DNA from: a virus
Reading direction: 5' to 3' (one strand)
IMG/VR virus record: IMGVR_UViG_3300009177_000006
Coordinates: 1 to 64,000 of that record
Length of the DNA: 64,000 nucleotides
Shown here piece by piece: positions 1,801-62,495 of the stretch. The notes beneath the pieces were generated by a model. The model saw nothing but the letters and a program-made list of their open reading frames with translations, searched no databases and was not told where the DNA came from. Made by a program: the position numbers and the translations under genes. Numbering within the stretch: the stretch's first letter is position 1; the number at the start of each line of letters is the position of its first letter.

Positions 1801-2895
1801 ATGCAAACGAGCCTGATTGCGTACCCGCAACAGGATAGGTTTATTCGTGTACATGAGTCGATACTTGCGGCCTGTAACAACAACTCAACTGCCGCCGCTT
1901 TAGTATCGTTTTTGGAGTATTGGCACAACTATCACATTCAACGAATTGAGTATCTTGCCGAGTTCAACGGTATGCTCAAACACGTTGGCGAAAAACCTAT
2001 CTTAGAACTTAATGGTTGGCAGTATCACACCGACGAACAACTTGAGCGCGGTCTGATGATTTCAAAGAAAGACTCGATACGCAAAGCTATCACCTTGCTA
2101 GAGTCAATCGGATTTATCACGACCGAAGTCCCAGAGCGTCTTGTCATCTTGCACAAGACCGGGCGAACCAAATGGTTCTTACTGATGACCAGTTGCATCA
2201 ACGACTGGTTGAAAGACTATGCGTATAGGACCGGCAAGCGTCTTGTACGTACACCGTCACTCGCTCCCGTTTCTAAACCCGATACCGAGATTGACCAAGA
2301 CGTGCAGACCGTCTTTGATTACCGTACCTTGTGCCGTAAAGAGTACAACCGCAAACGAGGTCGTAAGGACGTTAAGGAGGTCTTAACGCCTAAACGTATC
2401 GATGCGATTACCCGAGCATTGACACACTCTAAGCCATGGGAACTATGTCTAGCCATTGAAGGCAATCTCACGTCTGACTGGCATCAGGGTAAAAACGAAA
2501 AGAAGAAAATCTATGACCGGCTTGATTTAATCTTTCGTGACCGTGACCACGTTGAGCAGTATATGCGACTCGGTTACGAAGCCGGTCTATCCCGCGCTAC
2601 TGTCGAAGCTAAACTTGATCCCGAGTACAAAACCGTTGACGAGGACGCCGCCAAGAGCAACGGCGACTACTCGAAAACATTTGGTAGAACTGCCGCTCGT
2701 GTCATTATCCGAGGCGACGATTTCAATGACGCGATAATTACATTGTCCGCAATCTATGACGCGGACCTGCTACAACCTGACGTTGCCATGACTGAGGCTC
2801 AATCGACCTTAGAAGGTGAACTCGGCATGGTCACGACTGACCACGATAGATTATTGCAATCACTACTAGGAGAACTCAGAGCAAATGCCAACTAA
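1801..2895 (+). CDS. Replication initiation / helicase-loader-like protein
   Basis: The N-terminal ~120 residues look like a winged-helix domain (TDEQLERGLMISKKDSIRK, then a wing near FITTEVPERLVI), as in phage replisome organisers. The C-terminal half is charged and probably binds a partner. It has a good ribosome binding site (GAGAGGA) and overlaps the DnaB helicase gene by 11 bases, which fits a protein that brings the helicase to the origin. The name rests on fold impression and context; no specific family was identified with certainty. Confidence 0.7.
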   Translation: MQTSLIAYPQQDRFIRVHESILAACNNNSTAAALVSFLEYWHNYHIQRIEYLAEFNGMLKHVGEKPILELNGWQYHTDEQLERGLMISKKDSIRKAITLLESIGFITTEVPERLVILHKTGRTKWFLLMTSCINDWLKDYAYRTGKRLVRTPSLAPVSKPDTEIDQDVQTVFDYRTLCRKEYNRKRGRKDVKEVLTPKRIDAITRALTHSKPWELCLAIEGNLTSDWHQGKNEKKKIYDRLDLIFRDRDHVEQYMRLGYEAGLSRATVEAKLDPEYKTVDEDAAKSNGDYSKTFGRTAARVIIRGDDFNDAIITLSAIYDADLLQPDVAMTEAQSTLEGELGMVTTDHDRLLQSLLGELRANAN

Positions 2896-4339
2896 GAAAG
2901 TTGAACCACGGCGCGAGCATTATCTTGAGCGACCGTTACCATCAAACGAAGATGCCGAGCGCGTTCTACTCGGTGCGATCCTACTTGACAACCTACTGGC
3001 GAACGGTATCTTTGCCGAGTTACAGCCAGAAGATTTTTACTCACCGATACACCGCAGAGTAGCAGGTGCAATGCTTACTCTCTTACGACACGCCAAACCG
3101 ATTGACGCAATCCTGATAGGCGAGGAACTCAACAAAGAAGGTGATGTCAGGTCGATAGGCGGCGTCACTCATATATCGAACTTCACTTACGGTCTGCCTC
3201 ACTTTTCAAACGTCAACGAGTACATCAAGATAGTTCGTGACCACGCTCTTTCACGTAAGCTGATTGACTTGAATAACTCAACGACCGGCGCAGTCCTTTC
3301 TCAAGAGGAATCGCCTGACACTATCCTCGCCAGACTTCATTCGACCATCGTCGCGTTACAGGCGACACATTCCAAGATATCAACTCAGTCAATAAAGACC
3401 GTGACCGCTGATGTCATCGACACCTTTGAGCAATGGCAACTTGGTAACACGTCTGCCTCGTCATTACATACCGGCATCGCCGGTCTGGATCGAAAGCTTA
3501 AGTATCGAGGTCTGGCGCTTGGTGAGTTGGCGATAATCGCCGCACGACCATCGACCGGCAAGACCGCGCTCTTGATTCAAATCGCGTTACATATCGTCAG
3601 ACTTGGTATCCCAACACTCTTTGTCAGCCTTGAGATGCTTAAGTCGAAAATCGTGATGCGTATGCTCCCGGCTATGACTGGTATCGCCAACAAATCGATT
3701 AACCCGGATACCTTGCAAAAGTTGCCGAAAGAAGCCGAGCGATTAAAAGTCGCGCTACACTCTCTCGAGGAGTTGCCGATGTACTTTGACCGCACGAATG
3801 ATATCTACAAGCTGATTGCGATACTTGAGTATTACGTACAGGTGAAAGGCGTCAAGTGTCTTGTCTTTGATTACCTGACACTCTTTAAGGCGCTACAGGT
3901 GAGTAAGAACGGGACTCGTGATACTGAGGTTGGAACAATCGTGACCGAGATAAAAGAGTGCTTGATACGAAACAATATCGCGGGACTCGGCGCGGCTCAG
4001 TTCTCACGAGAAGCGGACAGGTCTTACGGCATACCACAAATGAACTGGCTGAGAGAATCGGGCGTCATCGAGCAAGCGGCTGACGTATTGCTCTTTCCGT
4101 ACGATCCTCGCGGCAAACTACATCACGAGCAACCAGAGTTGATTGCTAACAAGATGAGACTCAATCTATTCTGCGCTAAGCAACGTGACGGCGAACGCAA
4201 CTGGCAAGTCCCGTTAGACTACGACAAAAATTTGCAAACCTTTGAAGAAGGCGCCGAGGAGTTAGAGCCGGTCAGGTCAACGACACCGTTACCGCCAGTC
4301 CGTAACTTCTACGAGCGCGATGAGGATGACGATGAATAG
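2885..4339 (+). CDS. dnaB: DnaB-family replicative helicase
   Basis: This hexameric 5'-3' helicase unwinds DNA at the fork. The N-terminal DnaB domain covers about residues 15-110 (NEDAERVLLGAILLDN, FYSPIHRRV). The RecA-like domain contains Walker A ARPSTGKT near residue 220, TLFVSLEM (motif 1a) and Walker B LVFDYLTLF. At 484 residues it is a normal length for the family. It is translationally coupled to the upstream initiator-like gene and overlaps the next small gene. I see no primase in the window, so priming may rely on the host or on genes outside. Confidence 0.95.
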   Translation: MPTKKVEPRREHYLERPLPSNEDAERVLLGAILLDNLLANGIFAELQPEDFYSPIHRRVAGAMLTLLRHAKPIDAILIGEELNKEGDVRSIGGVTHISNFTYGLPHFSNVNEYIKIVRDHALSRKLIDLNNSTTGAVLSQEESPDTILARLHSTIVALQATHSKISTQSIKTVTADVIDTFEQWQLGNTSASSLHTGIAGLDRKLKYRGLALGELAIIAARPSTGKTALLIQIALHIVRLGIPTLFVSLEMLKSKIVMRMLPAMTGIANKSINPDTLQKLPKEAERLKVALHSLEELPMYFDRTNDIYKLIAILEYYVQVKGVKCLVFDYLTLFKALQVSKNGTRDTEVGTIVTEIKECLIRNNIAGLGAAQFSREADRSYGIPQMNWLRESGVIEQAADVLLFPYDPRGKLHHEQPELIANKMRLNLFCAKQRDGERNWQVPLDYDKNLQTFEEGAEELEPVRSTTPLPPVRNFYERDEDDDE

Positions 4340-4664
4340 CCCTGACCTTTTGGCGGTGCTCGCCAAACTAATCGAGCACAACATTTTCTTTACGTACCTG
4401 AACCAGACCGTAACCGGCGAACAGATATTGCACGTTCACGGTCACGATTACATGAAGGCGCACCGCCTGTATCCGAAGCTGTTTAAGCAGGTCAAAAGTG
4501 CCAACGTTAAAAAGTACGGAGAGACAATCTATTTACAAAATTTGTCTGGCGCGCCAGACAAAAAGGAGGACCATGATAACGCTCAACAATCCCGAGAACA
4601 AAAGAAACCGACTGACACTGGAACTAAGCGAACAACTCGCAAGCGTACCAAGACCAAAGTTTAG
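4332..4664 (+). CDS. Small hypothetical protein with SGAPD insertion and basic tail
   Basis: Start ATG 4332 overlaps the stop of dnaB and has GAGGA upstream; ATG 4320 is in the same frame. The first ~70 residues look like a compact fold (HVHGHDYMKAHRLYPKLF). Palindrome copy 2 then encodes LSGAPDK, after which the frame runs 92 bases into the next gene with a Lys/Arg/Thr-rich sequence. The tail may have arisen when the palindrome replaced the original stop; that is inference. Confidence 0.65.
   Translation: MNSPDLLAVLAKLIEHNIFFTYLNQTVTGEQILHVHGHDYMKAHRLYPKLFKQVKSANVKKYGETIYLQNLSGAPDKKEDHDNAQQSREQKKPTDTGTKRTTRKRTKTKV
4543..4560. repeat. 18-bp palindrome, copy 2
   Basis: Exact copy. It lies in the SGAPD frame of the gene ending at 4664 and 12 bases before the RusA start at 4573. 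The ribosome binding site AAGGAGGA follows immediately. Confidence 0.97.
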
Positions 4665-5181
4665 AATCGAATTTCGTACCTTACCGTCTTGGAACGACTA
4701 CCTTGCGATTGTTAAGCACTTTGGTATGTCAGCAAGCTTTCTCGCTAAGTGGCGTAAGCTTGGCGAGGAACACGCCATACGAGCCGCTCAGCAACAATCG
4801 TTTGGCATATTCCGTTGGCAAGAATTTGAGACACAAAAGAGCGGGCGATTAAAGGAGGTCACGCACGTTCGGATCAATCCGTACATCTTTACACATTGTC
4901 GAATCGTCTTACGTATCTGGCGACCGACATTCGCTGACTATGATGTCTTTAACCCTTGTATCAAACCTATCGTTGACGGCTTCGTTGACGCTGGCGTTAT
5001 CGCTAAGGACTCGTGTTGGCAAATACGGTCCGTACAGTGTGAGTTTATGGGCGTTGATGACAGCTTGAAATTATCGGTTGAGGCGAGAGAGCAACGTAAG
5101 ATCGAAAAACGAATACGTGGCGGTAAGGTCAAACGACAGCCGGTCGTGGCGAGGTATTTTTTCGACTTCTATGACGATTAA
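4573..5181 (+). CDS. RusA-like Holliday junction resolvase
   Basis: The C-terminal half carries the RusA signature: Asp-rich strand DYDVFNPCIKPIVDGFVDAGVI followed by a KDS where the family usually has DD, then CEFMGVDDSLKLSVEA. These enzymes cut branched DNA during recombination or before packaging. The start is set by AAGGAGGA directly before ATG 4573; the open frame begins upstream at 4498 but that part includes palindrome sequence in a non-SGAPD frame. The change in the second Asp position leaves activity uncertain. Confidence 0.72.
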   Translation: MITLNNPENKRNRLTLELSEQLASVPRPKFRIEFRTLPSWNDYLAIVKHFGMSASFLAKWRKLGEEHAIRAAQQQSFGIFRWQEFETQKSGRLKEVTHVRINPYIFTHCRIVLRIWRPTFADYDVFNPCIKPIVDGFVDAGVIAKDSCWQIRSVQCEFMGVDDSLKLSVEAREQRKIEKRIRGGKVKRQPVVARYFFDFYDD

Positions 5182-5197
5182 CCAGTTATCATCTGTT

Positions 5198-5223
5198 TTT
5201 ATTGTCACGGTCACGACAATAAA
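5198..5223. promoter_or_regulatory. Inverted repeat TTTATTGTC/GACAATAAA
   Basis: Perfect 9-bp arms around an 8-base centre lie between the RusA stop and the next promoter. There is no following T-run, so an operator is as likely as a terminator. Confidence 0.5.
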
Positions 5224-5229
5224 CGCACA

Positions 5230-5259
5230 TTGACTTCTCGCTTAGTTCCGCGGTACAAT
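5230..5259 (+). promoter_or_regulatory. Sigma70-like promoter
   Basis: TTGACT (5230-5235), 18-base spacer, TACAAT (5254-5259), 41 bases upstream of the ATG at 5300. It would drive the run of small genes from 5300. Confidence 0.7.
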
Positions 5260-5299
5260 GTCGATACGGCTTTCTTAAGCCTACTAGGAGCAAACAACC

Positions 5300-5503
5300 A
5301 TGAAACATTGTCTAACTTGCAGGTCACAGTTGCCGACTGAAAATCAGTCCGGGTTCTGTGACCTGATTTGTTTTCTAAACCAACCAACAAAATTTGAAAT
5401 AACTGACGTGATGCTTCCTGCGCCAGTCATACGACCGCACCGAGCGGATCAAAATACCTTTATGGAAGCGTATCTCAAAACCAAAACACAAGGAGCAAAC
5501 TAA
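5300..5503 (+). CDS. Small Cys-rich (zinc-ribbon-like) protein
   Basis: The 67 residues begin CLTC and continue GFCDLIC, a four-cysteine pattern typical of small metal-binding phage proteins. CTAGGAGC lies just upstream. First gene after the 5230 promoter. Function unknown. Confidence 0.75.
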   Translation: MKHCLTCRSQLPTENQSGFCDLICFLNQPTKFEITDVMLPAPVIRPHRADQNTFMEAYLKTKTQGAN

Positions 5504-5724
5504 TGGCACATGATATCAACGCTGACCGCGTTAAATTAACAGACGCATCGTCTATCCGACTTGACCGAGCGATACGTGCTTTCAAACGTAGCCTCGATGC
5601 CGATATGGCAAAGACGCGCGCCGATGCGAACCTGAATACTCAGGTCACATTTTTAACGACCGAGGAATTTGCGGTGTACGTCAAACGCACCGAGAAAATG
5701 TCTCAGGCGCAGGGGAGGTCGTAA
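5503..5724 (+). CDS. Small hypothetical protein
   Basis: 73 residues, charged and helical, no recognisable motif. The start ATG overlaps the previous stop region and has AGGAGC upstream. It is coupled to the next gene through a TAATG junction. Confidence 0.72.
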   Translation: MAHDINADRVKLTDASSIRLDRAIRAFKRSLDADMAKTRADANLNTQVTFLTTEEFAVYVKRTEKMSQAQGRS

Positions 5725-5984
5725 TGGCTAGAGAGGTCGTGATGACTGAGACGCCCAAACCGGCTGACCTTAACATACGTGGCTTACTCGATACGATAAA
5801 GGCACTCAGACGTTTTGAGGCAATGTGTCTTTTAGACTTGATGAAGTTCACGCCTGACCAAGTCGTAACGTTTAACTCGGCGGTCGGCGCTATCAACTTA
5901 GACCGATTAAATGAACTGGCGGACAACATCTATAGTCAGCCAGACATAGACCTGCGACAACTAGGAGTAAAACATGGCAACTAA
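5724..5984 (+). CDS. Small hypothetical protein
   Basis: 86 residues, mostly alpha-helical. Start ATG 5724 overlaps the previous stop and follows GGGGAGG; an in-frame ATG at 5742 is possible. It overlaps the Gp157-like gene by 11 bases, suggesting coordinated translation. Not recognised. Confidence 0.7.
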   Translation: MAREVVMTETPKPADLNIRGLLDTIKALRRFEAMCLLDLMKFTPDQVVTFNSAVGAINLDRLNELADNIYSQPDIDLRQLGVKHGN

Positions 5985-6666
5985 GAAACCAGCACCAGAA
6001 CCGGCTCGCCGGTCACTATTCAAAATCGGTGAGGACATCGAAGGTCTACACGAGTATCTCTATGAGACTTTCGGCGATGTCACCGATGAGGACTTAAACG
6101 ACAAGGTTGACCAGTGGCTTAGCGACCTGTCGATTGAGGAAACGGAAAAGATAGAGCAATACTGCTATGTCATCCGTAACAACGAAACACTCGGGAACGC
6201 CGCTGAGTCCGAGCAGAAACGCGTCAAAGCTTTAGCCGACCGGCGAAAGGCTCTTGTCAAACTTTTGAAAGACCGGCTCAAGTATTACTTTGAGCACGTT
6301 CGTTCGCCAAGTATCAAGTCATACGAAACGCCGATGTTCAAGTTGCTCGTCAAGGGTAACGGCGGCACACGCGCTCTCGTGCTTGATCCTCGTACCAATG
6401 ACCAAACACATCTTGAGGAACACGTACCGGCGATTTACATCAAACAGATATACGTGCTTGATGTTGAGGCGGTACGTCAAGACCTTGAGCGAGTCGAAAC
6501 GAGTCGAGCGCGTCTTGTACAAATGCGAGGCGATAACGCCTTGACAGGGCATCCGATTAATGGGGACCAAGAAAAGGAACTTGAAAAAACGATTGCCGAT
6601 TTAGAGGCTCGTCTATCAGGTGTCGGTTATCTTGAGCCTCGCGGTACACACTTGGAAATCAAATAG
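5974..6666 (+). CDS. Siphovirus Gp157-like protein
   Basis: The 230-residue protein has the pattern of the Gp157 family: an N-terminal helical region with LSDLSIEETEKIEQYCYVI, a coiled-coil centre (QKRVKALADRRKALVKLLK), and a beta section with SIKSYETPMFKLLVKGNGG. Members are common beside phage replication and recombination genes; their molecular role is not established. CTAGGAG precedes the start. Confidence 0.75.
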   Translation: MATKKPAPEPARRSLFKIGEDIEGLHEYLYETFGDVTDEDLNDKVDQWLSDLSIEETEKIEQYCYVIRNNETLGNAAESEQKRVKALADRRKALVKLLKDRLKYYFEHVRSPSIKSYETPMFKLLVKGNGGTRALVLDPRTNDQTHLEEHVPAIYIKQIYVLDVEAVRQDLERVETSRARLVQMRGDNALTGHPINGDQEKELEKTIADLEARLSGVGYLEPRGTHLEIK

Positions 6667-6669
6667 GTC

Positions 6670-6687
6670 TGTCTGGCGCGCCAGACA
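6670..6687. repeat. 18-bp palindrome, copy 3
   Basis: Exact copy four bases after the Gp157-like stop and upstream of the AGGAGC that serves the gene at 6725. Confidence 0.97.
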
Positions 6688-6724
6688 AAAATGCGCGCCA
6701 ATCTTTTTATAGGAGCAAAACACT

Positions 6725-7855
6725 ATGGGACACGGATTGATTAGAAATTCTGTGACAGGCAAGTTCGATGCGATGATTCGCAAAGGTGCTTGGCATCATT
6801 TAGGTAATGTCGTGCAAGAGGCGCAGACCGCCGAGCAGACTATTATCGAGGCCGGTATGGACCATCTGATATCAAAGCGACAGCTTCAAATAAATGGTAT
6901 CGATATTCCGGCTTGGGCGCTCTTTCGTGATGACATCTTTTATCACGATCCTCTAGCCGCACACATCGTCAACACAACCGAAGGTTTTCAGGTCATACAA
7001 AATCGGTTCATCTTTAGCTACCTCGATGCTCTGGTCGAAGGCGAAGGTAAGGCTCATTACGAGTCAGCCGGGATACTCAACAACGGCAAGCAGGTCTGGG
7101 CATTGGTTAACCTTGGCGTGTCGTTTGAAATCGGTGCGACCGGCGACCGCTTTGAGAACTACCTATGCTTCACCGAGGACCGCACAGGTCAACGCGCGGC
7201 TCAGTGCTTTATAACCTCGATACGTGTTGTCTGCGCTAACACCTACGAACGGGCATACGGTCAAGCCGGGACAGCCGTCAAATTCTACCATCGAGGCGAT
7301 ATGACTCAGCGCATGATTGACGCCGCTGACTTGTTTACGGGCGTCACTCAGGACGTGAAGCTGTTAGAGGAAAAGCTAAACGTGTTGTCACATCGGTCGT
7401 TGAGTAAAGAGATGCTCGGTTCAGTGCTTGATGAGTTGTTCCCGCCGGTCAAAGACGAGACAAGCCGTCAGCAGAACAACCGTGAGAAAAAGCAACTCAA
7501 CGTGTTAGACCTGTTCACCGACAACGATGGCAATATGTTTCCCGAGACAAAGGGAACGGCGTACAACCTGTTCAACGCTGTCACGAACTACGTTGACCAC
7601 GAAGCGCCTGTCAAGGTGACGGAAAATCGTATCGGTCGAACCGACAAGCAGATACGTGCCGAGTCCGCAATGTTTGGTGACGGTGCGAAATTCAAAATGT
7701 CGGCACTCGATTTGATCCTCGAAAAGACAGTCGGTGCAACGACTCGTACAGTCACGTACATCGACTTACACGGCAAGGAAATTAATGTTGAGGAACGAAC
7801 GCTCGACAACTCGTCGCTCCTCGATGCCGTGCTTGAGAAAGGCGCTCAAGTCTAA
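6725..7855 (+). CDS. DUF932-like phage/plasmid protein
   Basis: 376 residues. The N-terminus (GKFDAMIRKGAWHHLG) and the centre (SIRVVCANTYERAYG) match the conserved spots of the phage/plasmid-borne DUF932 family, whose function is unknown. Families of this type often lie near recombination or DNA-processing genes, as here. ATAGGAGC gives a clear start. The intergenic space before it holds palindrome copy 3. Confidence 0.8.
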   Translation: MGHGLIRNSVTGKFDAMIRKGAWHHLGNVVQEAQTAEQTIIEAGMDHLISKRQLQINGIDIPAWALFRDDIFYHDPLAAHIVNTTEGFQVIQNRFIFSYLDALVEGEGKAHYESAGILNNGKQVWALVNLGVSFEIGATGDRFENYLCFTEDRTGQRAAQCFITSIRVVCANTYERAYGQAGTAVKFYHRGDMTQRMIDAADLFTGVTQDVKLLEEKLNVLSHRSLSKEMLGSVLDELFPPVKDETSRQQNNREKKQLNVLDLFTDNDGNMFPETKGTAYNLFNAVTNYVDHEAPVKVTENRIGRTDKQIRAESAMFGDGAKFKMSALDLILEKTVGATTRTVTYIDLHGKEINVEERTLDNSSLLDAVLEKGAQV

Positions 7856-7894
7856 TCAAGCATAAACCGTCTGGCGTGTCGGCTCTAAGGCTTC

Positions 7895-7912
7895 TGTCTG
7901 GCGCGCCAGACA
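7895..7912. repeat. 18-bp palindrome, copy 4
   Basis: Exact copy 24 bases before the ATG at 7936. A degenerate half (GTCTGGCGTGTC, from about 7869) stands upstream in an arrangement also seen before copy 5. Confidence 0.97.
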
Positions 7913-7935
7913 AATTTTTAACTAGGAGATTAACC

Positions 7936-8151
7936 ATGAAATACAGAGCGGAAGTTACAGGTAAAGGCGAGGACGTTTGGTCAGCCAACGGCAAAGAGTA
8001 CAACACCGAGCAAGAGGCAAAAGACTGGCTCGATGACTTAGGCTTTCGATGGACCGGCTACGATGCCTCGCGAGTTGTCACGGTCGATACACCGCGACAA
8101 GAGGCGTTCGACGCGACTGATAGCCGTATCTATCAGAACTGGAGGCGATAA
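7936..8151 (+). CDS. Small hypothetical protein
   Basis: 71 residues, an alpha/beta-looking sequence (EVTGKGEDVWSANGKEYNT) resembling small phage proteins with a YcgL/DUF-type fold but not assignable. The start follows ACTAGGAG; the longer open frame from 7876 is only palindrome and spacer. Its stop overlaps the next ATG. Confidence 0.72.
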   Translation: MKYRAEVTGKGEDVWSANGKEYNTEQEAKDWLDDLGFRWTGYDASRVVTVDTPRQEAFDATDSRIYQNWRR

Positions 8152-8414
8152 TGTTTTTACCAACCTGCGCGTTTTTCAAAATCAGACACGGCGATTGGCA
8201 TGGCGGCGTTGTCGTGTCAATCGTGCTCACCTTAGACAATCGTACCGCCACCGCCGAACGTCATATACCGGCTGAGCAATTACAGCTTTGGTTAGATATG
8301 AAAGCCGGGATAATGCACATGATGGATTTTCTGCAACGTAACCTCATGATGACGGCAATGGAAAAATGGTTGACTGACAATCAGCTTCGGCGCTACATCA
8401 AGGAGGTCGTGTAA
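8151..8414 (+). CDS. Small hypothetical protein
   Basis: 87 residues with a short hydrophobic strand region (GGVVVSIVLTLDN) and a Met-rich helix. GGAGGC precedes the start. It abuts the next gene with a one-base stop/start overlap. Not recognised. Confidence 0.7.
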   Translation: MFLPTCAFFKIRHGDWHGGVVVSIVLTLDNRTATAERHIPAEQLQLWLDMKAGIMHMMDFLQRNLMMTAMEKWLTDNQLRRYIKEVV

Positions 8415-8692
8415 TGGCGCTCTTATTCAAATTGCAAATCTTACGTCCCGATGGTAATCAGGGGATACCACAAGACAGTCCCGATTGGCAGACGGTACGC
8501 GAGGCGGACAATGCGTTCGCCATACTCAAGGCACTCGTTGAGGATTTGAACGAGGACTTCCAAGACTGGCATGACGTTTACAAACGAGGCGACCTAAATA
8601 CAATCGGTCAGGTCGTTCACACCGCAGACTTTTACTGGCGACTACAGGTTATCGATGAAAAAGAAAACTCAGTCTTTTACGGTTGTTCCTGA
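8414..8692 (+). CDS. Small hypothetical protein
   Basis: 92 residues, acidic, starting after AAGGAGGTC. No motif recognised. It overlaps the next frame by 38 bases. Confidence 0.7.
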   Translation: MALLFKLQILRPDGNQGIPQDSPDWQTVREADNAFAILKALVEDLNEDFQDWHDVYKRGDLNTIGQVVHTADFYWRLQVIDEKENSVFYGCS

Positions 8693-8978
8693 TTGGCCGG
8701 TTATCTGCTCAGAGATAGTTGACACCGACATATCAGATAAGGCGATTGTAAAACGTTACAAGCTTCCCGAGTTTGAGCGGATCGACCTTGACGGGTTTCT
8801 CAAAGACGCAGGTCTTAAACGAGGTTGTTGCGGTCGTTGGCACTGGTTAGACGAGAACTGTTATATCTGCGCTCTGACCGCTCCGAATCTCAAGACTACG
8901 CATTACCATCTATGGCGGGTAAAACGTGGTCAAATCGCCTCTAATCGCCAGCAAACGGGTAATAAAGACGATGATTAA
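8655..8978 (+). CDS. Small Cys/His-containing hypothetical protein
   Basis: 107 residues with a CCGRWHW...CYIC cluster that may bind zinc. It overlaps the previous gene (8655-8692) and its end overlaps the SNF2 start. The last codons contain motif copy 2. Not recognised. Confidence 0.62.
   Translation: MKKKTQSFTVVPDWPVICSEIVDTDISDKAIVKRYKLPEFERIDLDGFLKDAGLKRGCCGRWHWLDENCYICALTAPNLKTTHYHLWRVKRGQIASNRQQTGNKDDD
8928..8956 (+). promoter_or_regulatory. Copy of recurrent ~31-bp motif (motif copy 2)
   Basis: GGTCAAATCGCCTCTAATCG, matching the rightward orientation of the motif, ends 14 bases before the SNF2 start. It lies within the end of the upstream coding frame, the weakest of the six copies. 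Confidence 0.4.
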
Positions 8979-10557
8979 CACGGTGTTCGACTCAGATATT
9001 GGCATTGACGATGACTCGATAGACCTACAGCCTGACGCTCTAGGTCTGACCGGCTTTGGCGTTGACCTGTTTCGCTTTCAGCTTGAAGGAGTACGGTACG
9101 GTTTAGAGGCTCAGAACTTTATCAACGGCGACCAGATGGGACTCGGTAAAACGTTACAAGCCTTGGCAATCTGTTACTCGCTCGGGCTGAGCCGGTTTAT
9201 CGTCATGTGTCCTGCCGCCGTGAAGCTTAATTGGTATCGAGAAATCAAACGGGCGAATCCTCTTTGGGTGACCTCGATTTGGGACGCTAAAAAGGGATCG
9301 AGCAATGCCAACGTCATAATCATCAATTACGACAATCTCAAAAAGCGAGTCATCGAGTTGATTGACTTTGACGCCGAGGCGATTGTGTTTGACGAGATTC
9401 ATTATCTAAAGTCTGGCAAGGCTCAACGTACACAAGCCGCAAAGACCGTGGCGAAGCCGGTCACAACTCTAATCGGATTATCTGGGACCGCGATGCTGTC
9501 ACGACCGAGCGAGTTAATAGTCCCGTTAGATATCATCAAGCGGCTCGATGACTTCGGCGGTTGGTTCGCTTTCGCTAAGCGATATTGCCAACTCTATAAG
9601 CGAAAGGTATGGATCAAACCTAAAGGCAGACACGCCTTTCAAAAAGAGATTTGGGATTATACGGGCGCAGCGAATCTTAATGAGTTGCACGACCGGCTCA
9701 CCGCTCGATGTTTCGTCAGGCGTCTTAAGACTGAGGTCTTATCTGATATGCCGGTTAAGCAACGAGCGCAGGTCACCTTTGAAATCACGAACAAAGCTGA
9801 GTACAAAAAAGCCGCCGAGGACGTAGCCGGTTATCTTGCGCTCTGTGCGGTTGAGGAAAAGGCGTTTACCGAATCGCTCAAGTATCTATCACCGAGCGAG
9901 CAACGTGACCGCATAGAGACTCGTAAGGCATCGGTTGAGGAAAAGACCAAAGCCGCCGAGAAGTTAATGCTGATTGAGACACTCAAGCAATTGGCGGTAG
10001 AAGGTAAGATGAGCGAGGCGAAAGAGTGGATTCAAAGTTTCATCGACGCAGGTGAGAAACTGGTCGTGTTCGTCAACCACATCAAGTTCCAAGACGAGTT
10101 GATTGCACACTTCCCGACAGCCGCGAGGATCGTCGCCAAAGACAGTTTACGCAACCGACAGATAAACATTGACAGTAAATTCAAAGTCGATGAAAATTGT
10201 CAGTTGATGATTGCATCCTTAAAAGCTGGCGGTACGGGAATTGATGGTTTGCAGGAGGTTTGTGCAAACTTAGCGTTCCTCGAATTTGATTGGGTTCCGG
10301 CTGTACACTTGCAAGCTGAGGACCGGCTACATCGTATGCTACAGGCTCGACAGGTCACGGCGTATTACCTCGTAGCCGAGAACACGATTGAGGAAACGAT
10401 ACAAGATTTACTCGCCAAGAAACAAGCTGACTGCGATGCGGTCTTAGACGGTATGAGCGAGGCGATTACTACATCAGTCTTTGATGACTTGATAGACGAA
10501 TTAACGAGCAAGGGGAAGGTTACGAGCAAGGGAGGTAAACGAGTAAAGGGTAGGTGA
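8971..10557 (+). CDS. SNF2-family DNA helicase/translocase
   Basis: A superfamily 2 ATPase. Seen motifs: Q-region FRFQLEGVRYG, Walker A GDQMGLGKT near residue 55, DEIH box (IVFDEIHYL), GLSGTAML (motif III), and in the C-terminal RecA lobe VFVNHIKF, SLKAGGTGI and AEDRLHRM with the motif VI arginine. The architecture is closest to the compact SMARCAL1/annealing-helicase-like proteins found in phages, suggesting a role in replication or recombination rather than nucleosome remodelling. ATG 8971 overlaps the upstream stop; the GTG at 8926 is less likely. Confidence 0.9.
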   Translation: MINTVFDSDIGIDDDSIDLQPDALGLTGFGVDLFRFQLEGVRYGLEAQNFINGDQMGLGKTLQALAICYSLGLSRFIVMCPAAVKLNWYREIKRANPLWVTSIWDAKKGSSNANVIIINYDNLKKRVIELIDFDAEAIVFDEIHYLKSGKAQRTQAAKTVAKPVTTLIGLSGTAMLSRPSELIVPLDIIKRLDDFGGWFAFAKRYCQLYKRKVWIKPKGRHAFQKEIWDYTGAANLNELHDRLTARCFVRRLKTEVLSDMPVKQRAQVTFEITNKAEYKKAAEDVAGYLALCAVEEKAFTESLKYLSPSEQRDRIETRKASVEEKTKAAEKLMLIETLKQLAVEGKMSEAKEWIQSFIDAGEKLVVFVNHIKFQDELIAHFPTAARIVAKDSLRNRQINIDSKFKVDENCQLMIASLKAGGTGIDGLQEVCANLAFLEFDWVPAVHLQAEDRLHRMLQARQVTAYYLVAENTIEETIQDLLAKKQADCDAVLDGMSEAITTSVFDDLIDELTSKGKVTSKGGKRVKGR

Positions 10558-48090: not shown

Positions 48091-48119
48091 TTGACATCTC
48101 TGTTAAGTACGCGTAGATT
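48091..48119 (+). promoter_or_regulatory. Rightward promoter of the ribozyme operon
   Basis: Perfect TTGACA (48091-48096), 17-base spacer, TAGATT (48114-48119). It produces an approximately 200-base leader before the first gene at 48324. The 47962-48323 gap holds only the two promoters, inverted repeats, palindrome copy 20 and ribozyme 1. Confidence 0.72.
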
Positions 48120-48151
48120 AAGTATTGTTAGGTTGATATTTGATAACTTAA

Positions 48152-48180
48152 GTCGGCATACATAGATTGGAATTGCCGAC
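48152..48180. promoter_or_regulatory. Inverted repeat GTCGGCA/TGCCGAC
   Basis: Seven-base arms 15 bases apart in the early leader of the rightward operon; operator or RNA hairpin. Confidence 0.45.
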
Positions 48181-48221
48181 AGGACATCGAAGGTACAATC
48201 AAGTATCCGATGCAAGCTTGA

Positions 48222-48245
48222 GGTTGACACGCACCGCAGTCAACC
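48222..48245 (+). other. Leader hairpin GGTTGAC/GTCAACC
   Basis: Seven-base stem with a 10-base loop ending two bases before ribozyme 1. After cleavage it would stay on the upstream fragment. Confidence 0.5.
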
Positions 48246-48247
48246 AA

Positions 48248-48298
48248 GACCGAAACCGGCTCAGCCGGTCTAAGCGTAAGGCGCTTACTGATGAGGTC
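48248..48298 (+). ncRNA. Type II hammerhead ribozyme 1
   Basis: Order: GACC (stem II), GAAA, CCGGC-TCA-GCCGG (stem III), TC, TAAGCG-TAAGG-CGCTTA (stem I), CTGATGA, GGTC (stem II). All catalytic core bases of the hammerhead are present and the three stems pair perfectly. Predicted cleavage follows C48270 in GTC. It lies 25 bases before the ATG at 48324. Confidence 0.92.
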
Positions 48299-48323
48299 AG
48301 AATCAAAACTAGGAGCAAACAAA

Positions 48324-48536
48324 ATGGCAAAGATAATCAAACGAGTTAATGGAATGGTAGTCGCGGCGTTGACCGATAAAGAGATGACAGACGCTAACGA
48401 GTTAGACCGATACGCAGTCTTTACTCAAGACGAATGGGAACAGGGCGCAGGTAATCGATACGCTGATATGTGTTTCGGTATGGCCGAGCACGCGATAAGC
48501 TTTGCGGTACATTACAACGACGAGGTAGATGACTAA
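48324..48536 (+). CDS. Small hypothetical protein, ribozyme operon gene 1
   Basis: 70 residues from ATG 48324 after CTAGGAGC; the longer frame from 48291 begins inside the ribozyme core. Acidic C-terminal half. Its stop overlaps the start of a 26-residue frame. Not recognised. Confidence 0.75.
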   Translation: MAKIIKRVNGMVVAALTDKEMTDANELDRYAVFTQDEWEQGAGNRYADMCFGMAEHAISFAVHYNDEVDD

Positions 48537-48616
48537 TGTTGCTAACAATCCTACACATCATCACTGACGAGGTCGTTGTCGAATCAATCGTGGTTTTCCT
48601 AATGGCGATACTGTAA
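48536..48616 (+). CDS. Possible 26-residue hydrophobic peptide
   Basis: ATG 48536 overlaps the previous stop (TAATG). The product MLLTILHIITDEV... is largely hydrophobic and could be a membrane peptide. The stop adjoins ribozyme 2. Supported only by coupling and position. Confidence 0.45.
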   Translation: MLLTILHIITDEVVVESIVVFLMAIL

Positions 48617-48670
48617 GACCGAAACCGGCTCACGCCGGTCGCAACGTGAATTCGTTGCCTGACGATGGTC
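48617..48670 (+). ncRNA. Type II hammerhead ribozyme 2
   Basis: GACC, GAAA, CCGGC-TCAC-GCCGG, TC, GCAACG-TGAATT-CGTTGC, CTGACGA, then T and GGTC. The C for T at core position 7 is tolerated in hammerheads. One extra T between the core and stem II is a deviation that may slow it. Predicted cut after C48640. Confidence 0.8.
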
Positions 48671-48696
48671 AGACTAAATCACTAGGAGCAAATACA

Positions 48697-48993
48697 ATGA
48701 AAAACGTAAACACCAAAACAACCGCAACCGTCAACGCAACCAAGGTCCGAGACAACATCTATCGGATGAAAGTCGGAGCCGGTCAGTCGTTCCAGATCGA
48801 ACTCGAAAAGGGCGTCGCCAATGTCTTTAAGTTCTCACCTGCTCAGCGCCGATTCAAGTTCGTCGGCGAGGCCGGTAATCTTAAAGCCGCCGAAGTCGAT
48901 ATCCGAACTGGTAAGTATGCCAAGCTTTTCAAGTCTGAGAAGATGAGAGCGTACAAGGCTGACGGAACGTTCGTAGTTCGCAAGGCTTACTAA
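48697..48993 (+). CDS. Hypothetical basic protein, ribozyme operon gene 2
   Basis: 98 residues from ATG 48697 after CTAGGAGC; Lys/Arg-rich with beta character (RMKVGAGQSFQIELEKGVANV). Could bind nucleic acid; no family recognised. The upstream part of the open frame belongs to ribozyme 2. Confidence 0.75.
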   Translation: MKNVNTKTTATVNATKVRDNIYRMKVGAGQSFQIELEKGVANVFKFSPAQRRFKFVGEAGNLKAAEVDIRTGKYAKLFKSEKMRAYKADGTFVVRKAY

Positions 48994-48998
48994 GCCTA

Positions 48999-49089
48999 AG
49001 TCGAAACCGGCTGGTATCTGTGAGGCGGCAAACAGTCCGCAAACCATGACGCCAGCCGGTCTAACCGTGATGCGGTTACTGATGAGACT
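48999..49089 (+). ncRNA. Type II hammerhead ribozyme 3, enlarged stem III
   Basis: AGTC, GAAA, CCGGCTGG...CCAGCCGG (stem III, 8 bp) with a 37-base apical insert containing GCGG-CAAACAGT-CCGC, then TC, TAACCG-TGATG-CGGTTA, CTGATGA, GACT. The stem II pair changes to AGTC/GACT with compensation on both sides. Predicted cut after C49061. Confidence 0.88.
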
Positions 49090-49112
49090 AAATCTAGGAG
49101 AGTGAACACACA

Positions 49113-49370
49113 ATGGCAACAATACAAGTCAAACGATTAAAGGCAATCTTAAAAGAATTGGGCATCACCGAGAACGTACACCTTACTAAGTATCGCCGCA
49201 CATGGAAAAATCCCGAGACAGGCAAGACCGAGAGATTCAACGAGTACGGACCGGCTTTCTCGGTAGTCGGTAAACGACATCTGTCGCCCGAACAGTTGGC
49301 GAGTCTCAAGGCTCACGAGCATCTGACGGTCACACACGAAACCGATAATTTCATTCACGTTAAAAGCTAA
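49113..49370 (+). CDS. Hypothetical basic protein, ribozyme operon gene 3
   Basis: 85 residues, basic (KRLKAILKELGITENVHLTKY), start after CTAGGAG. Not recognised. Its stop is one base before ribozyme 4. Confidence 0.75.
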   Translation: MATIQVKRLKAILKELGITENVHLTKYRRTWKNPETGKTERFNEYGPAFSVVGKRHLSPEQLASLKAHEHLTVTHETDNFIHVKS

Positions 49371-49371
49371 A

Positions 49372-49424
49372 GACCGAAACCGGCGCCGAGCCGGTCTTGA
49401 CGTTAATCGTCAACTGACGAGGTC
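49372..49424 (+). ncRNA. Type II hammerhead ribozyme 4
   Basis: GACC, GAAA, CCGGC-GCCGA-GCCGG, TC, TTGACG-TTAAT-CGTCAA, CTGACGA, GGTC. All stems pair perfectly; stem I differs in sequence from the other units but is fully complementary. Predicted cut after C49396. Confidence 0.92.
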
Positions 49425-49448
49425 AGACTAAAAACTAGGAGCAAAATT

Positions 49449-49793
49449 ATGACAACCAAATACATCATTCAACGCGTAATCAACTTTGACGGCACGACTC
49501 GTCACTTTCTCGCTTACAACTCAACGGTCGTAGCCGAGTATGACGGACCGCTACACTCTATCGGTGAGCGAGCGTTCGGTAGGGCAGACGGCAACGTCTG
49601 GTCATACGCCTCGGACTTACACGTTGCCAACGAGCGTGACAGTCAGATGCTTGACCACATCGCCGAAGCGACCGCCGGTCTGCGTAAGTCGCTTGATGAA
49701 CTTGAGGAGTTGCGCCGAACGATAATCACGAGCGGCTACGCCTCAACCAAACCGTTGACCATCGAGAAGCTTGAAAAGATGATATCGAAATAG
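49449..49793 (+). CDS. Hypothetical protein, ribozyme operon gene 4
   Basis: 114 residues from ATG 49449 after CTAGGAGC. N-terminal beta region (YIIQRVINFDGTTRHFLAY), helical C-terminus. Its stop overlaps stem II of ribozyme 5. Not recognised. Confidence 0.75.
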   Translation: MTTKYIIQRVINFDGTTRHFLAYNSTVVAEYDGPLHSIGERAFGRADGNVWSYASDLHVANERDSQMLDHIAEATAGLRKSLDELEELRRTIITSGYASTKPLTIEKLEKMISK

Positions 49794-49849
49794 TCGAAAC
49801 CGGCTCAGAGCCGGTCTGGTACAGGTTGACCGCTTGCCACTGATGAGAC
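49793..49849 (+). ncRNA. Type II hammerhead ribozyme 5
   Basis: GTC, GAAA, CCGGCT-CAG-AGCCGG, TC, a longer irregular stem I beginning TGG and ending CCA with an internal GGT/ACC, then CTGATGA and GAC. Stem II is only three pairs. Predicted cut after C49816. Confidence 0.82.
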
Positions 49850-49870
49850 AGGTCACTAGGAGTGAACATT

Positions 49871-50257
49871 ATGACACGTAAAGAAGCTATAGATTTTCTA
49901 TGTAACAAGTATTCCAACGATGACACCGAAGGGTACATTGACGCGGCAGACGGTGAAGGCGATAAGTATTGGGATCAGTTCCCAACTACTAACGAGTTAG
50001 ACGCCGATTTTACACTGTACCGTGATGCGATTGACAGCGATGATATCGCCGATGACGGCTTGACTTTTACACTTGAGAATTCAGCTTATGCTCAGGCGAC
50101 TGCTAAGACGGTTGAGCAAGGTACGGCGAAGGCGTTAGTCAGTATGATTATCGGCGACATTCTCACTCGTGACGAGGATGACGATGACGTGCCGGACAGT
50201 CTGCTCGATATTGACGAGCCTGACTATGACTATGAGTACGACGATTTAGGAGACTGA
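49871..50257 (+). CDS. Highly acidic hypothetical protein, ribozyme operon gene 5
   Basis: 128 residues from ATG 49871 after CTAGGAG; very rich in Asp/Glu, ending DEPDYDYEYDDLGD. Such acidity recalls DNA-mimic proteins of phages, but nothing else supports that role. Confidence 0.72.
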   Translation: MTRKEAIDFLCNKYSNDDTEGYIDAADGEGDKYWDQFPTTNELDADFTLYRDAIDSDDIADDGLTFTLENSAYAQATAKTVEQGTAKALVSMIIGDILTRDEDDDDVPDSLLDIDEPDYDYEYDDLGD

Positions 50258-50258
50258 T

Positions 50259-50441
50259 ATGACAGACCGAGAGAGATTGATTAACAGTGCCGAGCGTGAA
50301 CGGTGTTACAGCCGGTTACGCTCACTTGAAAAACGGTTGCCAAAGCCGTTATGTTGGAAGAATATCAAGTCATCGCCAGTCCGACATCTGACGATGCTGA
50401 TTGCGGTGTATGAGAAACGCCTTAAGGTAAAGGCGGTATAG
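50259..50441 (+). CDS. Small basic hypothetical protein
   Basis: 60 residues, Arg/Lys/Leu-rich helical sequence, one base after the previous stop with TTTAGGAG upstream. Not recognised. Confidence 0.65.
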   Translation: MTDRERLINSAERERCYSRLRSLEKRLPKPLCWKNIKSSPVRHLTMLIAVYEKRLKVKAV

Positions 50442-50451
50442 GAGTCAAATT

Positions 50452-50931
50452 ATGAGCGAAACTAAAACAGTAGGTGATAAGGTTTTCATTACTCAGCAAT
50501 GGTTGTATACAGGTCAGACCGAAGGCGTTGCCAGTAAAACGGTTGAACGGTTTACGGTATTAGACGAGAACGGCGATATGACCGATGAGACACGATGTTT
50601 CAAAAAGCCGAAAGGCTCGTATCTAGTGCCGGGATATGTCTATGATGCGACGATTGAGCAATTACCCGAGAACCGTATATCGTTAATCGGCTCGCCAGCC
50701 TTTAGACACGTCTATCCTAATCAGGAGGTCGTTGACCGGCTACGTGCCGAGTCATCGGCTCGTGCTCAGCTTATCAGGTCTGAGGCTCAAGCCAAAAAAG
50801 CGGCTGGCGAATGGTTTGATACGTGGGACCGTCTGGTTACGGCGTACAAGAACCTGTCAAGCTTTGGTGACCAGTTAGGATTTGAAGCCGCTGTAATCGC
50901 CCGTATGCGTAAGGACGCTAGGCGTAAATAA
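50452..50931 (+). CDS. Hypothetical protein
   Basis: 159 residues, mixed beta N-terminus and long helical C-terminus (AQLIRSEAQAKKAAGEW). TATAGGAG precedes it. A terminator follows. Confidence 0.7.
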   Translation: MSETKTVGDKVFITQQWLYTGQTEGVASKTVERFTVLDENGDMTDETRCFKKPKGSYLVPGYVYDATIEQLPENRISLIGSPAFRHVYPNQEVVDRLRAESSARAQLIRSEAQAKKAAGEWFDTWDRLVTAYKNLSSFGDQLGFEAAVIARMRKDARRK

Positions 50932-51002: not shown

Positions 51003-51383
51003 ATGAGAAAAACAATTATCGAAATCGTTGTCATTTTCGTCATCGCTCTGGCGATGTGTCTGGCGTTGTTTATCGAGGCGTCTAACGCGCAGGTCACGAC
51101 CGTATCAGGTCGTGTGTATCGTGAGGTCTACGGACTGCAAATCCCCGTCAGTCGCACGTATGTCGCTCTGTACGATAGTCACGGTCTACAGGCCGCAACG
51201 TACACGTCAACCTTTGGTTACTATCAACTCAACGTGCCGAACTATGATTACTACGTGGTTGTGGCAACGAGCCGGTTATATCTATTTGAGCCGGGAGCCG
51301 TGGTCTTTAACAGCGCCTTTGACGATGGTCACGGTTTTCACTTTGACTTCGTCGGTGTGCCGCCGCCAACGCGAGGTCGTTGA
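51003..51383 (+). CDS. Exported carboxypeptidase-regulatory-like domain protein
   Basis: A signal peptide or anchor (IIEIVVIFVIALAMCLALFI...SNA) is followed by a beta domain (VSGRVYREVYGLQIPVSRTYV, GYYQLNVPNYDYYVVV) typical of CarboxypepD_reg/SdrD-B folds. A secreted protein acting at the host envelope is plausible. Confidence 0.7.
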   Translation: MRKTIIEIVVIFVIALAMCLALFIEASNAQVTTVSGRVYREVYGLQIPVSRTYVALYDSHGLQAATYTSTFGYYQLNVPNYDYYVVVATSRLYLFEPGAVVFNSAFDDGHGFHFDFVGVPPPTRGR

Positions 51384-51676
51384 CTTACATACTCTTTCAA
51401 ATCGTGTGACCAAAATACCACACGAACGCCGGTTGCAAAACCGGCTTTTTTTGTGTACGTGACAAAGCCGCACATACCGTCCGACCACTGTACGACATAG
51501 CGCCCGTCTTTAGTCGGCATACGGTCGATGTACTTAACCCATTTGCGGTAACCTTCGGGTTCTACCCACTCAACAATTTTAACGCCTCGCGCATTACGAG
51601 GTTTGCCGTTAAAGCTGTTAACGCGCCATTGCTGTTCCTGCGGTATACCGCGACGATTCATATCTTTACGATTCAT
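51338..51676 (-). CDS. Hypothetical basic protein
   Basis: 112 residues, Arg/Lys/Trp-rich (VKIVEWVEPEGYRKWVKY). The start is ATG 51676 or 51661. Converges with and overlaps the 51003 gene by 46 bases; contains the opposite-strand terminator. Not recognised. Confidence 0.62.
   Translation of the reverse strand: MNRKDMNRRGIPQEQQWRVNSFNGKPRNARGVKIVEWVEPEGYRKWVKYIDRMPTKDGRYVVQWSDGMCGFVTYTKKAGFATGVRVVFWSHDLKEYVSQRPRVGGGTPTKSK
51428..51452 (+). terminator. Rho-independent terminator
   Basis: GCCGGTT-GCAA-AACCGGC followed by seven T. It ends rightward transcription inside the 3' half of the converging gene 51338-51676. Confidence 0.85.
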
Positions 51677-60476: not shown

Positions 60477-60803
60477 TTAGAATCCTGTCGGTCCGAGTTT
60501 TATCCGACTGTCGCCGAGTTGCTCTTGTAACTCTTTCTCAAAGGCGTTAGCTTCCATTTCCATTCCGTCAGCCAACGCGTTCAGATATTCATCCTCAGTA
60601 ATGACGCCTTTAGCGATGAGTAAACGAGCGAGCGAGCCTTGGTCAGCTTTGGTTATATCAACGCCAACGCGGAGATGCTTCGGCTCAGCCGCACCGTAAT
60701 CGGCTTTACCACACGCCGCCAGTTCCATGAGCCATTTAATACCCGACTGCACACGCCGAGAGTGAAGCATATATTTAGCTTTCGCCTCTGCTGGTAACAT
60801 CAT
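60477..60803 (-). CDS. Hypothetical helical protein
   Basis: 108 residues between queC and queD, four-base overlap with queC. Contains KADQGSLARLLIAKGVITEDEY, a pattern seen in small phage proteins of unknown role. Because it is inside the cluster a role in the modification is possible but not shown. Confidence 0.68.
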   Translation of the reverse strand: MMLPAEAKAKYMLHSRRVQSGIKWLMELAACGKADYGAAEPKHLRVGVDITKADQGSLARLLIAKGVITEDEYLNALADGMEMEANAFEKELQEQLGDSRIKLGPTGF

Positions 60804-61561
60804 AACAATCCTCCTAGGTTTCCTTCTGATTTGTCTGGCGCGCCAGACATTTTTGACTCCGCGTAATTCTCGGTCACGTCACGCCAATAGTCGGCGTCAT
60901 CGTATACCGTAGGATCGTCAACGATACCGGCATTGTGTATCGCCTCTAATCGCTCAACACACGTACCGCAACGACCACAGTGATTCTCACCGCCTTTGTA
61001 GCATGACCACGTCATATCAAGCGGTAAGCCGACAGTCGCCGCACAACTCGCAATCAAAGTCTTATCGTAACAGGCGAACGGTGCGAGGAGGTTGAGCCGG
61101 TTGTAATCGCATAACTCTAACGCCGCATCGAGCGCGTTAATGAACGACTCTCGGCAATCGGGATAAATCGCATGGTCGCCAACGTGAGCCGCAAACGCTA
61201 CGTTCTCGATGCCGTTTGACAATGCGTACCCGCCAGCTATCGCCAACATAATCATATTCCGATTCGGCACGACAGTCTGCTTCATGTTGTCTTGACTGTA
61301 ATGACCTTCGGGTACGGCTTGGTCAGATGTCAGCGAGGACCGGCTGAGGATCGATGCCAAGTTACTGAGGTCAACGACCGTATTCTTGACCTTGAAAAAC
61401 TCGGCAACCTTTTTCGCCGCGAGTAACTCTTTCGAGTGACGTTGACCATAGTCGAACGATATCGTTTCAACCTCGTTATGGTTGTGTAGTAAGACGCCGA
61501 CCATTGCAGATGAGTCAAGACCGCCCGATAAAAGAGCCAGGACTTTTTGATTCTTAACCAT
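60800..61561 (-). CDS. queC: 7-cyano-7-deazaguanine (preQ0) synthase
   Basis: 253 residues from ATG 61561. PP-loop SGGLDSS (12-18), FDYGQRH, VVPNRNMIMLAIA and a C-terminal four-Cys zinc site (CYKGG, CGRCGTC). Converts CDG to preQ0 with ATP and ammonia. The last 15 residues (SGAPDKSEGNLGGLL) come from palindrome copy 28 and beyond, an extension not needed by the family. Confidence 0.94.
   Translation of the reverse strand: MVKNQKVLALLSGGLDSSAMVGVLLHNHNEVETISFDYGQRHSKELLAAKKVAEFFKVKNTVVDLSNLASILSRSSLTSDQAVPEGHYSQDNMKQTVVPNRNMIMLAIAGGYALSNGIENVAFAAHVGDHAIYPDCRESFINALDAALELCDYNRLNLLAPFACYDKTLIASCAATVGLPLDMTWSCYKGGENHCGRCGTCVERLEAIHNAGIVDDPTVYDDADYWRDVTENYAESKMSGAPDKSEGNLGGLL
60832..60849. repeat. 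18-bp palindrome, copy 28 (in coding sequence)
   Basis: Exact copy in the SGAPD frame near the end of queC. Confidence 0.97.
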
Positions 61562-62495
61562 CAACCTTGTGTTCCAGACCATAATTTTCTCCTAGTATGA
61601 ACGCCGTCAACGTTGCCACGTCTGAGATGTTTTCGGCGTTGCTAAAGTAAACCTTGATATCCTGTTGCCAGTATTGAGTGAGCCATAAAGAAGCTTGCGC
61701 CCACGCGACACCGTCAACTAGACACGCATAAACCCGCTTGTACTTTTCCTTGTCAACAAACCACTCGGGATCAAGACCGAGCGCACGGAAACGTTTGCCG
61801 TGTTTATAGACACTCGCCTTATCCCAGAGCGTCGCTTTCATAAACTCGCCTTTACCGTCAAAGAAAACTAATCGCCCGTATATCGCACCGGCGTTCCAAC
61901 TCGAGGAGTCAACCGAGTGCCAAGGGAAGCTTTTAAGTAACTTCCAATTCGTCATGCCAAAGCCGTGAAACTTACAGCCGGTTGTCTGAGCCATTTTGAA
62001 ACAGGTGATGAAGTAAGACATCAGATTCTTACGGTCAGTAGCGAACGGCACAAGACCGCCGAGCGCAATGTAATCGTAATCCTTCATCAGCTTATCGAGT
62101 ATCTTAAAATCAGCGCCCACATGAAAGACCGGCAAAGGCGTCAGGTCATACGCATTCTCAAGATACTCTTGATTCTTAGCGGTCTGTTTCTCGTTGCCGA
62201 TGACATCGAAATTAGCATAGGTCAGAAAGTGCTTTTTGTGTTTTGTTAACCATCGAGCGTAATCATCGATATCAATCTGCGCGCCTTGAGTTGCCGCTGA
62301 GAACGCACCGGAGTCCGCAAAGAGTTTAGGCGCACCGAGCGGAAACAGCTTCGGCAACTGCTTATCGAAATCGAAGTCACGAAAGTAATGGTATGAGGTC
62401 AGCGAGTAAGGTTGAAAGCCTTTAAGCATGACCTGTACAGGCGTTGTCATATCTCTGATGTTTAAGAGGACCGTGTTTGAGATAAAGCTAATCAT
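61554..62495 (-). CDS. dpdA: DpdA-type DNA deazaguanine transglycosylase
   Basis: 313 residues with the tRNA-guanine-transglycosylase barrel reduced to the phage form: LFADSGAFSA (Asp61 likely catalytic), VFHVGADF, YIALGGLVPF and FHGFGMTNW. In characterised phages DpdA swaps guanine in DNA for preQ0. Overlaps queC and the ParB-like gene by a few bases, showing one operon. The TGT Zn site is not obvious. Confidence 0.88.
   Translation of the reverse strand: MISFISNTVLLNIRDMTTPVQVMLKGFQPYSLTSYHYFRDFDFDKQLPKLFPLGAPKLFADSGAFSAATQGAQIDIDDYARWLTKHKKHFLTYANFDVIGNEKQTAKNQEYLENAYDLTPLPVFHVGADFKILDKLMKDYDYIALGGLVPFATDRKNLMSYFITCFKMAQTTGCKFHGFGMTNWKLLKSFPWHSVDSSSWNAGAIYGRLVFFDGKGEFMKATLWDKASVYKHGKRFRALGLDPEWFVDKEKYKRVYACLVDGVAWAQASLWLTQYWQQDIKVYFSNAENISDVATLTAFILGENYGLEHKVDG

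Follow-up and report, generated by a model that had tools for sequence, protein, structure and literature searches.

A phage operon in which self-cleaving RNAs appear to lie between the genes raises the question of whether its transcript is cut into separate messages, and by what kind of ribozyme. We addressed this question in a 64-kb stretch of DNA (the window), which is part of a 69,487-base IMG/VR virus record with terminase and portal genes. The original prediction placed five type II hammerhead ribozymes at 48248-49849, described them as uniform in layout and situated at gene junctions throughout, and proposed that they split the operon RNA in a manner not described before.

The phage itself appears very divergent. 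Its terminase gave one weak match in the phage collection (28.5% over 24%), no terminase or portal relatives were confirmed in IMG/VR scans, and BLAST of the array region against cultured phages returned only chance-level pieces. Elsewhere in the window, at 60800-61582, lies a gene for a QueC-like protein (PF06508, E 2e-58), which suggests 7-deazaguanine modification of phage DNA or tRNA.

Five hammerhead units along one operon

We scanned both strands of the window for the type II topology, i.e., GAAA, a stem III of at least 5 bp, UH, a stem I of at least 4 bp, CUGANGA and a stem II of at least 3 bp. Exactly five matches were found, all on the plus strand at 48248-49849 as predicted (U1-U5), compared with none in 60 first-order Markov-shuffled windows, and the rest of the 69,487-base record held no further units. 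The catalytic core is intact in all five, with CUGANGA, GAA, the A15.1-U16.1 pair and H17 present, and in each unit stems I and III are closed and stem II is open (by MFE for U1-U4, by homology to RF02276 for U5). For U1-U4 the MFE structure is a three-way junction with z of -2.6 to -3.9; for U5 the best predicted fold without a pseudoknot is not a hammerhead (z -0.23). A covariance model, R1, trained on the subtype represented by U1-U4 (subtype A), with U1, U2 and U4 in its training set and U3 and U5 outside it, scored the five units at 40-67 bits (E 1e-11 to 1e-20) and gave no other match in the window below E 0.04. That the array consists of type II hammerhead ribozymes is thus well supported at the level of sequence.

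All features of the operon lie on the plus strand. A putative sigma-70-like promoter, TTGACA-17-TAGATT, is found at 48091-48119; it is a consensus match only (10/12) and weak taken alone, since the region contains seven promoter-type matches where 4.0 are expected. U1 (48248-48298; predicted cleavage after C48270; R1 66.9 bits) lies between this promoter and gene 1 (48324-48536, 70 aa). U2 (48617-48670; predicted cleavage after C48640; 55.7 bits) carries an extra U between A9 and stem II, an offset seen in 37 of 192 sites among the matches listed, and is followed by gene 2 (48697-48993, 98 aa). U3 (48999-49089; C49061; 59.4 bits), which has a long stem III, precedes gene 3 (49113-49370, 85 aa), and U4 (49372-49424; C49396; 63.9 bits) precedes gene 4 (49449-49793, 114 aa). 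U5 (49793-49862, core 49793-49849; C49816; 40.1 bits) is followed by genes 5-8 (49871-50257, 50259-50441, 50452-50931 and 51003-51383) with no hammerhead between them, and the operon ends at an intrinsic terminator-like hairpin, GCCGGTTGCAAAACCGGC-T7 (51428-51452, of which 51428-51445 is the hairpin and the remainder the T-run). The cut nucleotides agree with those of the original prediction, and they lie 53, 56, 51, 52 and 54 nt from the start codons of the genes downstream of U1-U5, respectively.

The placement at gene junctions holds for U2-U5 and fails for U1, which sits in the leader; the rule common to all five is therefore a position just upstream of a ribosome-binding site (RBS). The leader at 48140-48247 contains two perfect 7-bp hairpins (GTCGGCA..TGCCGAC and GGTTGAC..GTCAACC), and cleavage at U1 would free a structured leader RNA of ~145 nt. 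The segment between U1 and U2, for its part, holds more than gene 1: a 26-codon ORF at 48536-48616, encoding a hydrophobic peptide, overlaps the gene 1 stop and lies directly before U2.

Two subtypes in one array

Closer comparison of the five units established that the array mixes two subtypes. Subtype A (U1-U4) is compact, with a 17-nt stem I hairpin, a G-U-N-A-N-G-C loop, a 4-bp stem II and a near-invariant A before stem II. U5 belongs to subtype B, which is pseudoknotted: by inspection, its loop I UGACC is complementary to GGUCA in the tail, forming a possible pseudoknot, and its stem II is only 3 bp. The uniform layout originally described applies to the core of all units, with U2 departing from it by its extra U and U5 by its subtype.

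Loop I shares at least four complementary bases with the 3' tail in 82% of subtype B sites (long stem I) versus 27% when shuffled, and in 16% of subtype A sites (short stem I) versus 11% (192 unique sites, from the matches listed and the window). A loop I-tail pseudoknot in U1-U4 is accordingly unsupported. Instead, the loop of subtype A is itself conserved, reading G98 U99 N A89 N G81 C97 (percent) in 297 sites among the matches listed, although the letter frequencies of loop and stem II are inflated because two search patterns fixed the loop G, U, A and C and stem II. The loop bias was already evident in the match set obtained with core and stem III, where the loop was free. The bases flanking stem II were fixed by no search pattern, and in the same 297 sites among the matches listed A precedes the stem in 99% and A or G follows it in 96%. 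Conceivably, the G-U-N-A-N-G-C loop of U1-U4 makes a non-Watson-Crick contact with the A-flanked end of stem II, in place of which U5 would use the pseudoknot.

Checking the array with the Rfam type II model, as had been proposed, gave no match in the whole window at the gathering threshold. U1-U5 share the topology and catalytic core of RF02276 (Hammerhead_II), but U5 matches this family only weakly (32.7 bits, below the gathering cut-off of 37) and U1-U4 go unrecognised even at E<=10. Across 12 subtype A loci the R1 model finds 55 units and Rfam at gathering finds 2; many subtype B units are picked up by Rfam. Subtype A is nearly always missed at the gathering threshold, and current annotation misses most such ribozymes.

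As a system, an array of hammerheads in a phage operon is of a known kind, contrary to the claim that none had been described. Clusters of type II hammerheads that flank one gene or a short block in prophages were reported by Perreault et al. (2011; PMC3088659), who proposed that they cut phage transcripts into messages the length of a single gene or of an operon; three arrays cleaved in vitro, and the Agrobacterium tumefaciens array cleaves in E. coli. Those arrays (e.g., the A. tumefaciens triple array around ardA) resemble ours in that the type II permutation is common and several same-strand units flank the genes of one phage operon. However, the type II consensus of that study contains a loop I-tail pseudoknot, whereas four of the five units here lack it and carry another conserved loop, and here the first unit precedes the first gene. 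The same authors noted that ~40% of hammerheads likely use a pseudoknot, the contacts of many others being unknown (PMC3088659), and a 2017 review that covers the clustered prophage hammerheads describes type II contacts as usually Watson-Crick and the role of prokaryotic hammerheads as an open question (PMC6155905). The theta ribozymes of gut phages (PMC10879173) are likewise self-cleaving and process RNA in tailed phages, but have an HDV-like fold and are linked to phage tRNAs rather than to mRNA junctions. Our literature search covered open-access full texts, and hence few preprints and neither subscription papers nor supplements; it turned up nothing further on arrays in phages, and subtype A may already appear in supplementary alignments.

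The original interpretation is therefore partly supported. What it missed is that four of the five units are pseudoknot-free and undetected by Rfam, that they are mixed with one canonical unit (U5), and that U1 stands before the first gene. The new element is this Rfam-missed and widespread structural variant, occurring here alongside a canonical hammerhead.

Related sites in phages and cellular genomes

Searching with a pattern of core and stem III, we found at least 120 stretches in phage contigs (IMG/VR) and 43 in the genomes of 84,980 bacterial and archaeal species; in the bacterial and archaeal assemblies, subtype A lies on contigs assigned to Planctomycetota, Synergistales, Promineifilum, Clostridia and a betaproteobacterium. 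In 118 unique viral sites among the matches listed, for which only core and stem III had been fixed, a stem I of at least 4 bp is present in 113 (versus 2% by chance) and stem II, which was not required, in 109. Two further patterns, with core, loop and stem II fixed and stems I and III free, were applied to public phage contigs. Among the matches listed, all five base pairs of stem I form in 134/135 and 93/93 unique sites, or 227 of 228 overall, compared with 4% and 8% when partners were swapped, and the stem occurs in at least 81 and at least 53 distinct sequences; stem III forms in 131/135 and 90/93. The covariation claimed for these helices was thus confirmed for stem I in an unbiased manner, while a count from a 32-sequence alignment of all stems was not taken as proof, since pairing had been a condition of the scan behind it. 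Judging from these matches, subtype A is widespread in IMG/VR phages.

The position relative to genes recurs as well. In 416 sites among the matches listed, the stop of an upstream ORF (at least 60 codons) falls within -5 to +2 of stem II in 70%, versus 2.5% in the control, and a Shine-Dalgarno (SD) sequence with a start codon follows within 60 nt in 89%, versus 22% in the control, at a median of 22 nt. In the commonest layout among the matches listed, the last base of the stop codon is part of stem II. Like U1, the first units of three other arrays (L075, L084 and L329) precede any plausible gene.

A comparable operon occurs in Streptomyces phage Tefunt and its relatives (NC_054665 / MF766048, Arquatrovirinae), with eight type II hammerheads, most of them at junctions. 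It differs from ours in that all units are pseudoknotted and recognised by Rfam; they are absent from the record's annotation, in which two genes run over ribozymes. All five annotated intergenic gaps longer than 80 nt hold a ribozyme, and three further units overlap or just precede the annotated starts of gp79 and gp75. These two genes, annotated at 1551-1781 and 2629-3594 (locus L122), cover hammerheads; both probably begin only after the ribozymes, the start codons having been mis-annotated. The records of phages Andris and Triumph match the array region of Tefunt. Annotation probably sets gene starts inside or before ribozymes in the same way elsewhere.

Processing of the operon transcript and its alternatives

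The original inference that the operon RNA would be split into separate messages is well supported by sequence. We consider it probable that this processing is constitutive and co-transcriptional, so that the five cis-acting hammerheads provide every gene or block with a message of its own whose ends are protected by hairpins. The primary transcript, running from the promoter at ~48.1 kb to the terminator at ~51.45 kb, would carry the five units, each of which would fold once transcribed and cut after C17. Besides the leader, this would release four messages of ~335-421 nt, followed by a fifth of ~1.6 kb. On the upstream side of every cut, the RNA would terminate in the GC-rich stem III hairpin, similar to that of an intrinsic terminator, and carry a 2',3'-cyclic phosphate; on the downstream side, it would start with a 5'-OH and the stem I hairpin, at a distance of 51-56 nt from the start codon. 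As the hairpin that ends the operon has the same GCCGG/CCGGC arms as stem III of the units, the 3' hairpins of all messages would be alike. Predicted pairing of both new ends is mostly high, and lower for stem I of U3 (0.44-0.99).

In bacteria, 5' hairpins and a missing 5' phosphate impede RNase E or J where these depend on the 5' end, and terminal hairpins impede 3' exonucleases. From this general knowledge of RNA decay, we infer that protected, standardised ends may insulate neighbouring genes and set message stability without a protein factor. Since no plausible gene lies ahead of U1 or of the first units of L075, L084 and L329, a defined 5' end is probably part of the function, beyond separation; and since no ribozyme lies between the last four genes, separation is not applied to all genes.

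A tenable, though not a probable, alternative is that the ribozymes cut mainly to mature 5' ends (a 5'-OH and a hairpin before the RBS), with gene separation as a by-product. Units that precede the first gene fit such a role, as does the tight spacing to the start codon in the window, yet the 3' side is just as tight, with the stop codon abutting or overlapping stem II at most sites, and the upstream message always keeps a GC-rich stem III hairpin. The same stop codon overlap could instead point to a switch, in which cutting exposes or hides the downstream RBS, or is itself prevented by a ligand or by a terminating ribosome, which would cover the core strand. This we regard as unlikely: predicted SD-to-ATG accessibility is nearly equal in uncut and cut RNA (0.84/0.85, 0.68/0.69, 0.54/0.59, 0.64/0.78 and 0.45/0.46 for U1-U5), and the long stem III of U3 is the only aptamer-like extension seen. 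An unmasking of the RBS by cleavage was rejected on these values. With cutting hardly altering access to the RBS, separation into messages with protected ends is the simplest interpretation.

Other explanations fare worse. The repeats could function at the DNA level, for instance as linkers through which recombination shuffles small genes, their ribozyme activity being incidental or lost; units of an array can indeed be alike (two adjacent units in L231 share their whole core) and the genes beside them are small and show no relation to known families. Nonetheless, the stem sequences vary and still pair almost always around an intact core, implying selection on RNA structure, so that we hold this explanation to be improbable. 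Hardly more credence, and if anything a little less, is due to the rejoining of segments into circular messages by RtcB or by the reverse reaction. The 5'-OH and 2',3'-cyclic phosphate ends suit RtcB and every inner segment lies between two ribozymes, but the phage record gave no RtcB match (phage genes only; the host might supply the enzyme) and a search for spliced or circular products by Perreault et al. was negative (PMC3088659). A search for the T4 RNA ligase family gave no match, with its controls likewise giving none. Lastly, the GC-rich stem III resembles a terminator hairpin and the window has no gathering-level Rfam match, as would be expected of chance hairpins or repeated terminators, but the complete core, the empty shuffled windows and the lack of a T-run after stem III leave this explanation next to no probability, and covariation refutes it.

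Whether message separation with protected ends extends to subtype A at large is a more tentative matter. It may be a very common RNA of phage operons that serves as protein-free mRNA punctuation, placed between stop codon and RBS as well as before the first gene and providing messages with 5'-OH hairpin starts and terminator-like 3' hairpins that resist host RNA decay, a proposal to which we give somewhat less than even chances. A common and uniformly placed subtype, occurring in arrays of up to eight and with a unit before the first gene, offers sharp, testable predictions on phage mRNA processing. Among the matches listed, subtype A arrays of eight units occur in L231 and L329; relatives of these two and of a further subtype A array, L312, were sought in the phage collection without a match. 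Finally, the densest array among the matches listed, in L084, comprises twelve hammerheads within 5.5 kb (3609-9067, minus strand), each just before a GAAGGAGGACA-type RBS, and has a short distant match only, in a Streptomyces phage.
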